Positions 48,459 through 52,728 of a DNA stretch of 64,000 nt are shown here, piece by piece. The notes below the pieces were generated by a model. That model was not told the origin of the DNA. It was given only the letters and a program-made list of their open reading frames with translations, and ran no database searches. Where the stretch lies: NCBI RefSeq assembly GCF_009859475.1, contig NZ_CP044549.1, positions 5,580,001 through 5,644,000 of the forward strand, read 5' to 3'. The translations under genes and the position numbers were made by a program. This stretch comes from Hydrogenophaga sp. BPS33 (lineage in GTDB: Bacteria > Pseudomonadota > Gammaproteobacteria > Burkholderiales > Burkholderiaceae_C). Each line of letters opens with the position of its first letter. Within the stretch, counting starts at the first letter, position 1.

Positions 48459-49760
48459 ATGACCACCACCGCCTCCACCGGCAGCACAGCCGCCAAGCCC
48501 GCCGAGCACGCCCACAAGCCCCAGCAGGACAAGGCGCGCCCCGAAGCGGACAAGGCCGGCCAGGCCTCGGACCTGTTTTCCGCGATGCTCGCGCTGATGA
48601 GCGACGCCCAGGGCGACGCCAGCGCGGCGGACGAAGCGCTGGACACCCACAAGAAGGAGGCCGATGCCAACGCTCTCGATCCCTTGGGCGCCATGCTGGC
48701 CTGGATGAAGCGGGACCCCGCCAGCGACGCCGACGGCCAGGCGCGTGCGGGCACACCGGGGGCCGCAGCCGGCACCGCCACCCAAGCGCCGCGCGAAGGC
48801 GGCATCGGCATCGATGGCATGGCACGGGTCGATGAACCCGCCCCGCCGCTGGCCAACCCCAGCGCGCAGGCACGCGCCGCCTCGCGCCCCGCCTTCAGCC
48901 CTCTCAACCCGCACGCGCCCGTCCCCGCCGCATCGGCCGCCGACGGGCAGGCATCCGGCGGTGGACCCCAGCCGCTGGCGTGGCAACGCGGCGGCCCTGT
49001 GGGCAGCACCGATGCGCTGCAGCAGCAACAGGCGGCGCAACTGGCCCAGGTGCGCACCACCGTCGCCATGAACGAGCGCTTGGGACTGGCCAGCCCGTCG
49101 CCCGAGCGCGGCGCGGTGGCGCTGGCCCCAAGCGAATTCGCGTCCACCCAGAACGCCTTCAACATGGCGGGCGGCAATGCCGCCGGCGTGAAGACCGGCC
49201 CGGTGTCGGGCATGGCCGCAACGGGCGACAGCAACACCGCGGGCCTCGTGGGTGTGGGTGCTGCCAACGATGGCAGTGGCGGCAGTGGCGGCGCCAGCGG
49301 AGACGCTTCTGCCCAGGCACAAGGCAACGACGCGCAGAACCCCTACGCCGCCGAAGCCGAGACCAGCACCGTGAGCCACTGGGGCACGCAGCACCTGCGC
49401 CACGCCAGCCTGCGCGTGGGTGGCGAAGGCAGCGCCGACGCGATCGACATCCAGTTGCAGCTTCAAGGCCAGGAGGTGCAGGTGAACTTCCAGACCGACA
49501 ACGCCGAAGCGCGTGCGCAACTGCGCGAGAGCGCGGGCGAATCGCTGGCCGATCTGATGCAGCGCGGTGGCATCCAGCTGGGCAGCGTGTCGGTGGGGTC
49601 GCAGGGACCGTCGCACGGCGACGGGTCACAGGCGCATGCGGCCACGGCACAGATGCCGCGCGCCGCACAACGCCAGCCGTCACCACCGCAGGCGGTGTCC
49701 CGGGAGCCCATCGAGCACACGCGCGCCGACGGCTCGCGACCGCTGGATGTGTTTGCCTGA
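48459..49760 (+). CDS. fliK: hook-length control protein FliK
   Basis: FliK measures hook length and triggers the FlhB switch. The 433-aa protein has a long Ala/Pro/Gln-rich N-terminal region (about 1-300) and the hook-control domain (about 305-400; HLRHASLRVGGEGSADAIDI, QLQLQGQEVQVNFQTDNAEA, RAQLRESAGESLADLMQRGG). The tail ends in RADGSRPLDVFA. Downstream, instead of fliL, is an opposing ankyrin-repeat gene. Confidence 0.94.
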   Translation: MTTTASTGSTAAKPAEHAHKPQQDKARPEADKAGQASDLFSAMLALMSDAQGDASAADEALDTHKKEADANALDPLGAMLAWMKRDPASDADGQARAGTPGAAAGTATQAPREGGIGIDGMARVDEPAPPLANPSAQARAASRPAFSPLNPHAPVPAASAADGQASGGGPQPLAWQRGGPVGSTDALQQQQAAQLAQVRTTVAMNERLGLASPSPERGAVALAPSEFASTQNAFNMAGGNAAGVKTGPVSGMAATGDSNTAGLVGVGAANDGSGGSGGASGDASAQAQGNDAQNPYAAEAETSTVSHWGTQHLRHASLRVGGEGSADAIDIQLQLQGQEVQVNFQTDNAEARAQLRESAGESLADLMQRGGIQLGSVSVGSQGPSHGDGSQAHAATAQMPRAAQRQPSPPQAVSREPIEHTRADGSRPLDVFA

Positions 49761-49821
49761 AGGCTCGTCAGACCATGGGGTTCGAGGCCCGCAGTGGGGC
49801 CTTGTCACGCACACACATGCG

Positions 49822-51984
49822 TCAGACGCGCATCGCGCCCGCAGCGGCTCTCAACAGCCGCACCGTCTCCTCGTGTTTCCATTCAAGCGCCAAGTGCAGC
49901 GGCATGAGCCCCGCCGTGTTGGCCTGATGGATCGAGGCCTTGTGGTCCAGCAACAGCTGGACCACACCATGGTGGCCCGCTCTGCTGGCGGCGTGCAGCG
50001 GCGTGTCGCCTTGTTTGGCGGTCGCGTGCACTTGATGTGGCGCCTGCGACAGGATGAACCGGACGATGTCCAAATGGCCTTTCTGGCTCGCGTGGTGGAG
50101 TGCCGTCAGCCCGAATGCATCGCACTCGTTCAGATCCACACCGTGTTCGATCACCAGCGCCTTGACCTCGGCAAAGTGGTTGTCGCTGGCATGCATCAAC
50201 AGCAGGCCGACCCGGATTCGGTGCGCATCCCGCGGCTGCAGATCACCGAGCTCTTGCGCCTTCAGCGTGGCGCGCTCATGGATCACCAGCGCTTGCTGGT
50301 GGGCATCCCACGTCAAGGTGTTCATGGGGGGCGCGGAGCGCTGCAACAACGCAATACCGGGTTGGCCGGTGGTTCGCTCAGTACCGCCATCTTCGATCCA
50401 CAAGACCAGCGCCTGCATGTTCAGCTCGATCAAATTCGTGCCGTCGCCGCCAACCGTGGTGATGTGAAGCCCCTGATAGCCGCCATCCTGGTGACGCGGC
50501 CGAGGAATGCCCGGATCGTGTTGAAACCGGCCGCGCATGGCTTCGATGGCCCGCTTGATGTCACAACCCAAGCCGAGGATGCGCAACACGCCTTTTTCAA
50601 ACAGCAAGCGAAACACCTCGACCAAGGGCGCACGCTCGCTGCGGCCCAAGATCACCATCACCTGCTGGTAGGCGTCGTCCCAGTACGAGTGAAAGTTCAG
50701 CGCGACCATGTCGCCATCCATCCTGGGCAGATCCATCAAGCCTTGCCAACTCAGGTCTTGCATACCATCGCCCAGCTTGTGCATCTCGATCCCGGCCGCG
50801 GCACCGCATTTGAAAAAGGGGCCGTGGTCCCAAGCCGCATGGTCTGCGCCCACGATGATCCAACACCGCTTGAACGTCGTCGGGGCGAGCTGGATGGGCT
50901 GGGCCATTTGTGTCATTTGCAGGGATTGGATGACTTTGAGCGGCTGGCCACACTGCGCCGCCAGACCCACCGGCAAGGTGCGCCAGTCGTTGGGCTGGTT
51001 GGCCATTTCCCGGAACTTGTCGGCTGGCATGGCGGCCCGCAGCGCCTCGGTGTTTTCCGGATGGCGGGTGTTCATGGCAGCCATGTGCAAGGCGGTATGA
51101 CCGCGAATGCCCCGCGCATGCAGGTCCACGCCTTGCTTGATCAGCCAAGCCACTGTGAACGGGCTCCCGTCCCGACAGGCGACCAGCAGTGGAGACCATC
51201 CGTTGGGCAAGGATGTGTGAACGTCCGCCCCTTTGGACTGCAACAACTTCGCCATGTCGAGAAGCTCGTGTGAAATGGCGAGGTAAAACGGGGTGGCACC
51301 GGCGGTGCGGCGGGCGTTTACGTCGGCCACACCAAGCCCCAGCAGCATTCGAACGACGGATTCCTGGCGGTGGGCCAGTGCCAGGTGCAGCGGCGTCGAG
51401 TGGTTGTCGACCGTGCGGGGGTTGGGATGGGCCTTGCGGTTCAACAGCGCAGCCACGATGGTGAAATGGCCCGCCTTGGCCGCTTCGTGCAAGGGCGTCA
51501 TGCCTTTGTGGTCGGCTTGGTTCACATCAGCGGTGCCCTGCCACAACAGGACATCGACAATGCCTTGCTCCACCGCCCCCGGCTGCCGCACGGCCAGCTG
51601 CAAGGCGGTTCCTCCCGTGCTCAAGGGCTTGTTCAGCACGGAGGGATGTGCCTTCAACAGCGCCTCCACCGCCTTCTTGTCGCCATCGACGATGGCCCGT
51701 TCCAGCTGCTGCGCGTGGCTCAGACCGGCTTCGCGAACAGCCTGCGCCTGGATGGAGAGCGTAGGCTGTGGCGCCAACGCCGTCGTCGTGGTGGTCACGT
51801 CACCCGGCAATGCGGTGGCGGTCGTTTGTGTGGTCGACGTGGTGGTCGTGGTAGTCGTGGTATTTGTGGTGGTCGTGGTGGTGGCTGGGCCGCCTGGCCC
51901 GCTCGGTAGGTGGAGCGGGGGTGCGGAATCGGGTTGCAGCCCGGTCGGTTGTCGGGTGTACGGCGTCGCAGAGGTGTTGTTCAT
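49822..51984 (-). CDS. ankyrin-repeat protein with possible caspase-like central domain
   Basis: A 720-aa protein from the ATG at 51984 (GAGA 7 nt upstream); ATG 52014 and GTG 52044 are in-frame alternatives. Residues about 35-52 are almost all Thr. About 100-310 hold ankyrin repeats (GMTPLHEAAKAGHFTIVAAL, HTALHMAAMN), and about 583-715 more (GLTALHHASQKGHLDIVRFI, GDTPLHAASRAGHHGVVQLL). The region between (about 365-545) is not ankyrin. It has MVALNFHSYWDD, then RLLFEKGVLRILGLGCDIKR; a strand-His then strand-Cys order like caspase/CHAT peptidases (His432, Cys474). That reading is inference. There is no signal peptide. It lies opposite to the fli operon between fliK and fliL, and looks like a later insertion. 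An effector or toxin role is possible but not shown. Confidence 0.8.
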   Translation of the reverse strand: MNNTSATPYTRQPTGLQPDSAPPLHLPSGPGGPATTTTTTNTTTTTTTTSTTQTTATALPGDVTTTTTALAPQPTLSIQAQAVREAGLSHAQQLERAIVDGDKKAVEALLKAHPSVLNKPLSTGGTALQLAVRQPGAVEQGIVDVLLWQGTADVNQADHKGMTPLHEAAKAGHFTIVAALLNRKAHPNPRTVDNHSTPLHLALAHRQESVVRMLLGLGVADVNARRTAGATPFYLAISHELLDMAKLLQSKGADVHTSLPNGWSPLLVACRDGSPFTVAWLIKQGVDLHARGIRGHTALHMAAMNTRHPENTEALRAAMPADKFREMANQPNDWRTLPVGLAAQCGQPLKVIQSLQMTQMAQPIQLAPTTFKRCWIIVGADHAAWDHGPFFKCGAAAGIEMHKLGDGMQDLSWQGLMDLPRMDGDMVALNFHSYWDDAYQQVMVILGRSERAPLVEVFRLLFEKGVLRILGLGCDIKRAIEAMRGRFQHDPGIPRPRHQDGGYQGLHITTVGGDGTNLIELNMQALVLWIEDGGTERTTGQPGIALLQRSAPPMNTLTWDAHQQALVIHERATLKAQELGDLQPRDAHRIRVGLLLMHASDNHFAEVKALVIEHGVDLNECDAFGLTALHHASQKGHLDIVRFILSQAPHQVHATAKQGDTPLHAASRAGHHGVVQLLLDHKASIHQANTAGLMPLHLALEWKHEETVRLLRAAAGAMRV
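51820..51882. repeat. trinucleotide (ACC)-type repeat coding for poly-Thr
   Basis: A run of GTGGT/CGTGG triplets on the plus strand encodes about 20 consecutive Thr with single Asn, Ser and Gln interruptions near the N-terminus of the ankyrin protein. Imperfect triplets suggest age, but length change by slippage is possible without frameshift. Confidence 0.8.
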
Positions 51985-52116
51985 AGAGCGTCTCATCGGG
52001 GTGATGAGGTTCATGAAACGCGACAGTCTGCGAGGTTCCCGCACGGAATAGCCGGCTTTTCAAGCCCTTTTCCAGCGACCACCGCAAGGGTGAGCGCTGA
52101 ATAATTCTTTCCACCC

Positions 52117-52134
52117 CACACGGCTTCCCGTGTG
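52117..52134 (+). other. hairpin upstream of fliL
   Basis: CACACGG / CCGTGTG 7-bp perfect stem with a CTTC loop, in the 168-nt gap between the ankyrin gene start and fliL. It may be a new leader for the fliL-R half of the operon or part of a regulatory site. No convincing promoter is visible beside it. Confidence 0.5.
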
Positions 52135-52152
52135 CGTCGTTGAAGGAATTCC

Positions 52153-52728
52153 ATGTCTGCCGCTGCTGCCACCGCCACCGCTGCCGCTCCCGAAGCGCCC
52201 AAGAAGAAAAGCAAGAAACTGCTGTTCATCGTGCTCGGCGTGGTCGTGCTCGCCGTGCTGGGCGCGGCCGCGGCGCTGTTCATCCTCAAGAAGAACACCG
52301 CCGAGGACGACTACGAAGAAGACGACGGCCATACGCCCGTGGCGCAGGCCAAGACCTCCAAGACCGCCCCCACCTTCCTGCCGCTGGAAAACATGGTGAT
52401 CAACCTGGCCGATCCGGGGGGCAACCGCTTCATCCAGCTCGGCCTCACGCTGCAGTTGCAGGACGCCGTCACCGAAACCGCGGTGAAGTCCTACCTGCCA
52501 AGCATCCGCAGCCAGGTGCTGGTGCTGATCTCGCAGCGCACGACCGAGGAACTGCTGGTGGTCGCGGGCAAGGAAAAGCTGGCCAACGACATCATCGCGA
52601 CCATCTCCAAGGAAATGGGCTACGCCATGCCTGCCGAGAAGAACGCCGACGGCACACCCCCGCGCCGCACGCGCGCCGCACCCAACCCGGTGCAGGCCGT
52701 GCTGTTCTCCAGCTTCATCATTCAATAA
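52153..52728 (+). CDS. fliL: flagellar basal-body protein FliL
   Basis: FliL surrounds the stator and supports torque. The 191-aa protein has one membrane helix (about 22-44, KLLFIVLGVVVLAVLGAAAA), an acidic linker and a periplasmic domain (FLPLENMVINLADPGGNRFI, QLGLTLQLQD) ending VQAVLFSSFIIQ. AAGGAA precedes the ATG. Confidence 0.96.
   Translation: MSAAAATATAAAPEAPKKKSKKLLFIVLGVVVLAVLGAAAALFILKKNTAEDDYEEDDGHTPVAQAKTSKTAPTFLPLENMVINLADPGGNRFIQLGLTLQLQDAVTETAVKSYLPSIRSQVLVLISQRTTEELLVVAGKEKLANDIIATISKEMGYAMPAEKNADGTPPRRTRAAPNPVQAVLFSSFIIQ

Follow-up and report, generated by a model that had tools for sequence, protein, structure and literature searches.

Between the flagellar genes fliK and fliL, the window under study (a stretch of 64,000 nucleotides from Hydrogenophaga sp. 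BPS33, NZ_CP044549.1, positions 5,580,001 to 5,644,000) carries a gene on the opposite strand (49822..51984, minus strand) for a 720-residue protein, P0001, in which two blocks of ankyrin repeats enclose a middle domain of a different kind. In our preferred reading, to which we assign a probability of about two in three, P0001 is an active cysteine peptidase of caspase fold that is guided by its flanking ankyrin blocks. The gene is one of six in this genome that form a lineage-specific family. An earlier note on this DNA, drawn from the letters alone, had described a 720-residue ankyrin protein running against the direction of fliK and fliL, a description borne out by the reading frame, by Pfam and by a scan of the neighbouring genes.

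The middle domain (residues 362-582; 50239..50901, minus strand) very probably adopts a caspase fold of clan CD-like type, as judged from its predicted model and the structures that this model matches. The segments NFHSYW and ILGLGC are both present and place His432 and Cys474 at a spacing of 42 residues. In the model of P0001, His432 (codon 50689..50691, minus strand), the predicted catalytic base, directly follows a strand at residues 426-430, and Cys474 (codon 50563..50565, minus strand), the predicted nucleophile, directly follows a strand at 468-472, which is the order of clan CD; both assignments draw on model and alignment. As the fold comparison of the whole protein listed ankyrin-type matches, the middle domain was folded alone, and this domain-only model matches structures of MALT1, caspases, CHAT and C11. 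In the Foldseek search of the PDB all 14 matches at E <= 0.001 were MALT1, with template-modelling scores (TM-scores) of 0.39-0.45. The best VIA match of the domain model was the CHAT part of SAVED-CHAT, with Craspase TPR-CHAT among the top matches and Raptor at rank 2 of the same comparison. Among the matches listed, clan CD structures ranked first and C80 did not appear, a listing that leaves room for families outside it, such as C80 or the XopD-like clan CE fold of the AnkH type. The earlier note had proposed that the His and Cys show the order and spacing of caspase/CHAT-type peptidases and had suggested a structure prediction with comparison to C14 and CHAT folds; carried out here, this lends the proposal the support of prediction, both in the matched structures and in the strand positions.

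A family-model search of the same segment, also suggested at the time, gave no Pfam sequence match to C14 or CHAT. No C14 profile matched P0001 (E <= 1) or any of seven isolated middle domains, that of P0001 included (E <= 10), and CHAT was absent from the Pfam matches of either set. Six of these seven domains, that of P0001 among them, were without any Pfam match at E <= 10; the Peptidase_C32 match of the remaining one (E 0.089) was taken as chance. Sequences of solved structures gave 7 weak matches, the best at E 0.084. Known NCBIfam and PADLOC names were discarded, the best stretches among those listed lying in ankyrin repeats: the NCBIfam scores fell far under the curated ones, and the best PADLOC stretches of P0002, P0004 and P0007 overlapped the C-terminal edge of the domain by at most about 18 residues.

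A search of the whole assembly that contains the window (6,772,294 bases, 3 contigs) returned 36 matches, mostly ankyrin, and a profile of the middle domain found six places at E < 1e-100. Besides the fli-locus gene these are a single copy at C1:1.949 Mb and a group of four within C1:1.144-1.160 Mb. Paralog identity is 26-49%, save for one pair at 68%, and nine sequences can be aligned over the full length of the domain. The five further genome copies and this alignment show that the middle domain is more than a chance stretch of sequence. The four clustered copies belong to a run composed of six ankyrin frames, all on the minus strand (C1:1142720-1161547, loci L016 and L017). The other two frames of the run (391 and 928 codons, counted between stops) were without the middle domain in the profile search; both (L016:4724-5896 and L017:1585-4368) share by eye another N-terminal segment, LLxxxGIDPTTxKAxALI, which suggests a second module type in the run.

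Outside this genome, the protein database yielded P0002, and a seven-row profile added P0006 and P0007, on contigs that are all 2.8-7.1 kb long. Since that profile search scored the 7997 candidates sharing most words and gave the best 120 of 1383 matches, more relatives may exist. Among 123 collected proteins the middle domain was found at E <= 1 in P0001-P0007 alone, of which P0003 is a fragment cut from P0004, and a search with the P0004 domain found nothing but itself among 4832 candidates. In a genus sample of 60 genomes, this one included, 57 gave matches, mostly ankyrin, and among those listed none outside the window's genome can hold the middle domain; one, in genome G025, was given as query 233-678 yet is just 246 bases long. 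Profile searches of wider samples, which overlap and each score just those candidates that pass a permissive first screen, did not find the domain in 398 other genomes of the family or 398 of the order, and 368 others of the class and 397 of the phylum gave nothing beyond two short marginal matches. One of these covers 39 positions at E 0.007 (L144); the other (L146; 47 positions, E 0.0017) was set aside, as its 410-codon frame reads by eye as a glycosyltransferase. A collection of contigs from 84,980 species gave 49 pattern matches and no relative. Phage or plasmid cargo was likewise considered and rejected: the middle domain had no match in phages, 77 pattern matches in viral contigs included no relative, and a slightly longer stretch of it had no match in plasmids.

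Both dyad positions are kept in six of the nine aligned domains (P0001, P0002, P0007, P0004, the 1.95-Mb copy and a 1480-codon frame). The three others lack both residues and comprise two genome copies and P0006, the latter on a short public contig: a 1556-codon frame has Arg and Ala at these positions, whereas a 962-codon frame and P0006, its 68%-identical relative, have Arg and Asp. Twenty-nine columns are invariant in the six dyad-bearing domains, and only the His and Cys columns differ in all three others. As the groups are defined by these very columns, it is fairer to ask whether, once the first residue is lost, the second is lost as well. Given the number of the 29 columns that changed in each lineage, the chances of finding Cys changed where His had changed are 0.21 and 0.32 for the two lineages, with a product of 0.07. 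For family C11 the motifs H-G and A-C are printed, with Gly also worded as preceding His, in a review (PMC12445089). Here, H-G occurs in two of the six dyad-bearing domains (P0007 and a1480, the 1480-codon frame) and H-S or H-T in four, A-C in a1480 alone and G-C in five; Gly precedes His in copy b981 alone.

The middle domain is preceded by an ankyrin block at about residues 78-354 (50923..51753, minus strand) and followed by a second one at about residues 584-715 (49840..50235, minus strand), both delimited by Pfam, the predicted model and fold comparison. The best of several Pfam ankyrin matches include residues 137-225, 161-188, 596-644 and 658-689, and no non-ankyrin Pfam family exceeded its cut-off on the whole protein. 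The public database gives a length of 720 residues, from an ATG at 51984; the frame is still open up to a GTG at 52044 (740 residues), a possible alternative start. By composition, residues 35-75 form a Thr-rich low-complexity stretch (25 of 41 residues; 51760..51882, minus strand), partly encoded by 9-nt direct repeats (window 51833-51886), and residues 1-76 of the model have a predicted local distance difference score (pLDDT) below 50. Thr runs, with 23-32 Thr in the N-terminal 90 residues, are also present in P0002, P0006 and P0007, members from different contigs, and P0004 has just 10, so that four of five members examined are Thr-rich at the N-terminus. No Sec signal is evident by eye in P0001.

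In the mechanism that we propose, the ankyrin blocks would capture a target protein and hand it to the His432-Cys474 dyad for cleavage. The members without the dyad, that is, the two genome copies and P0006, may bind the same targets without cutting them, either competing for these targets or guarding them. Several observations weigh against this proposal. With its product of 0.07 the joint loss of His and Cys is suggestive only, and a tree of the nine domains fits one or two losses of the dyad alike. The residue preceding Cys is Gly in five of six domains, not Ala. Both predicted models were built on five sequences, the TM-scores to MALT1 are no higher than 0.39-0.45 in the 14 best matches, and the three best viral matches are unnamed or uncharacterised proteins. 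The caspase fold is, moreover, also found in Raptor, second in the structure ranking. Finally, neither an injectisome nor a type VI secretion system (T6SS) sheath was found in a search limited to these and to VirB4-type genes.

At the fli locus the six neighbours scanned all lie on the plus strand. Those on the left are a FliI-type ATPase, FliJ and FliK, and those on the right are FliL, FliM and a FliN-type protein. The minus-strand gene thus converges with fliK (48459..49760, plus strand) and diverges from fliL (52153..52728, plus strand), both assigned from Pfam and frames. The nearest FliL relatives with named records are in Hydrogenophaga (87% for Hydrogenophaga sp. 2FB). In a genus set of 67 genomes, including this one, FliL was matched in 58, and 30 loci were returned, 29 of them besides the window. 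From the last aligned residue of FliK to the first of FliL the distance is 138-476 nt in 27 of these 29 loci, compared with about 2.4 kb in the window; the other two (L048 and L063) are shorter than the rest, and no FliK was seen in them. Similarity to the closest relative, L046, is clear up to the fliK stop (49760) and is found again from about 52018, which defines an insert of about 2.26 kb with one gene (49761..52017, from alignments with ends set by eye and thus approximate). This junction comparison had been proposed in the earlier note, and the short junctions that it revealed speak against a gene that the whole family keeps at this position. The fli copy came in by itself, inserted as one gene between fliK and the leader of fliL, and very probably has no special flagellar role.

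The leader of fliL, about 135 nt long (52018..52152, plus strand; CTTTTC ... AATAATTCTTTC ... start of fliL), was kept after the insertion and, in the alignments, resembles that of L046 and shares motifs with other relatives. Leaders similar to it lie upstream of fliL across much of the genus (L046-L074), and several of them contain an inverted repeat that has the form AATAAGCGCC-TTTTCC-GGCGCTTAT, after which comes CAATAATTCTTTCAA or a sequence close to it; this might be a site for a flagellar master regulator or a sigma factor. A scan of 49600-52300 for sigma-70-type promoters found none, and one terminator-like site was present in the same interval, compared with a shuffle average of 2.3. 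The earlier note had considered a partner of the flagellar export system; more widely, P0001 could be a regulator or partner of flagellar assembly that acts through its position in the operon. The place of the gene within the operon, back to back with fliL across the leader that was kept, could allow it to share flagellar control; in view of five further domain copies elsewhere and of a fliK-fliL distance of at most 476 nt in 27 of 29 relatives' loci, the idea is weakened to the point that we consider it very improbable, and it was rejected as the main explanation.

The ankyrin run at 1.14 Mb is flanked by a thiolase and a patatin-type gene. Four of six fetched relatives match both flanks, with about 0.9-1.25 kb between them, and the other two are without a match to the right flank. 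In L128 the space between the flanks is occupied by an acyl-CoA thioesterase (Pfam), and similar frames were recognised by eye in the other three. At the 1.95-Mb site the match to the DNA of each of the four relatives fetched reaches at most a little way upstream of a periplasmic-binding-protein gene; as three of them carry more than 5 kb upstream of this gene, the break must be wider than the ankyrin gene. By these comparisons each of the three sites, fli, 1.14 Mb and 1.95 Mb, differs from the relatives examined.

An effector or a toxin, both named in the earlier note, is a plausible if putative function. That the target of P0001 lies in another organism is a further step, possible although the odds are against it. 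The protein would then be an effector injected into a eukaryotic host such as an amoeba, in the manner of RARP-2, with ankyrins that localise it and a clan CD dyad that cuts a host protein. The genome contains a single FHIPEP gene, the flagellar one, and thus no injectisome, and no VipB for a T6SS sheath. Two VirB4-type genes reside on the two smaller contigs, within VirB/VirD4-type and Trb/Tra-type clusters, and any protein cargo of these would be putative; the type IV secretion system (T4SS)-type clusters are on C2 (L148, 340 kb) and C3 (L147, 107 kb). Hydrogenophaga is not known to us as a host-cell invader, and the likeness to RARP-2 is drawn from descriptions of that protein. An effector would nevertheless suit a lineage-specific, multiplied family in which four of five members begin with a Thr-rich stretch, a region modelled with low confidence in P0001. 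RARP-2 has the same two ingredients and depends on its ankyrins as well as on its predicted Cys (PMC7259798); divergent relatives are reported from other Rickettsiales, one of them in an Acanthamoeba endosymbiont (PMC11077975).

Less probable is an internal defence or cell-death protease, triggered by an ankyrin-bound phage protein in analogy to CHAT and caspase-like immune effectors. The SAVED-CHAT and Craspase matches point in this direction, and the strong divergence of the paralogs would suit an arms race of sensors; but the best PADLOC stretches in four members lie within the ankyrin blocks and touch the domain at its C-terminal edge only, no defence gene is among the six fli neighbours scanned, and none was recognised in the frames and Pfam matches around the ankyrin cluster. 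Raptor is a non-peptidase with a caspase fold, and its second rank, together with the three of nine members without both residues, would fit a scaffold devoid of protease activity that keeps His and Cys for structure or binding. This is less likely still, as both residues are invariant in six divergent domains in which most of the sequence has changed and both follow core strands in clan CD order. A wider proposal, which we put forward as speculative and rather unlikely, would make these proteins the first example of a new family of clan CD, with caspase-fold peptidases inserted within ankyrin solenoids. Such a family would have grown within a single Hydrogenophaga lineage as its genes were duplicated and dispersed, and its active and dead members would form matched sets of cutters and decoys whose targets belong to protists or phages.

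Among titles and opening lines of abstracts from the open-access PMC literature we found no description of this ankyrin/caspase-fold family, subscription journals being outside that coverage. In Legionella AnkH, too, a cysteine protease-like domain is inserted among ankyrin repeats (PMC6712400); it resembles XopD of clan CE, with a His-Asp-Cys triad and a fold different from that predicted here. Pseudo-orthocaspases, bacterial caspase homologs, commonly lose both dyad residues (PMC6426788). They often have Tyr-Ser and similar pairs and occur mainly in Alphaproteobacteria and Cyanobacteria, whereas here Arg is paired with Asp or Ala in ankyrin proteins. With the paracaspase MALT1, metacaspases and orthocaspases (C14), P0001 shares a His and then a Cys after core strands, and the Foldseek matches at E <= 0.001 are all MALT1; unlike them, it has no C14 Pfam match, TM-scores of 0.39-0.45 and no p10-like subdomain shown. 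It differs from SAVED-CHAT and Craspase TPR-CHAT in that no sensor or CRISPR partner was recognised at its loci, its arms are ankyrin and not TPR, and a CHAT Pfam match is absent.

To our knowledge, an ankyrin array and a clan CD protease in one bacterial protein are known mainly from intracellular Rickettsiales, whereas Hydrogenophaga is an environmental genus. The closest parallel is RARP-2, a T4SS effector of Rickettsia assigned to MEROPS C123 by a review (PMC12445089), with ankyrins and a predicted clan CD His-Cys site. A Cys mutant and an ankyrin deletion each lose its effect on the Golgi (PMC7259798), and divergent relatives, mostly from other Rickettsiales, retain the clan CD site (PMC11077975). 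Its repeat number varies and its divergent relatives are patchily spread. Compared by description, RARP-2 has its protease N-terminal and its ankyrins C-terminal, whereas P0001 carries the domain between two ankyrin blocks; P0001 moreover comes from a betaproteobacterium that has flagellar genes and in which no injectisome was found, and its domain occurs there six times, twice without the dyad. Such a family in Hydrogenophaga, with another domain order, multiplied and partly of apparent pseudoproteases, would suggest that the design also arises outside obligate intracellular bacteria. It offers a tractable setting for testing how ankyrin arms steer a caspase-like protease, and matched members with and without the dyad make such testing direct. 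In domain order, host and copy structure the present family thus sets itself apart from RARP-2, and it looks like a distant cousin in design.
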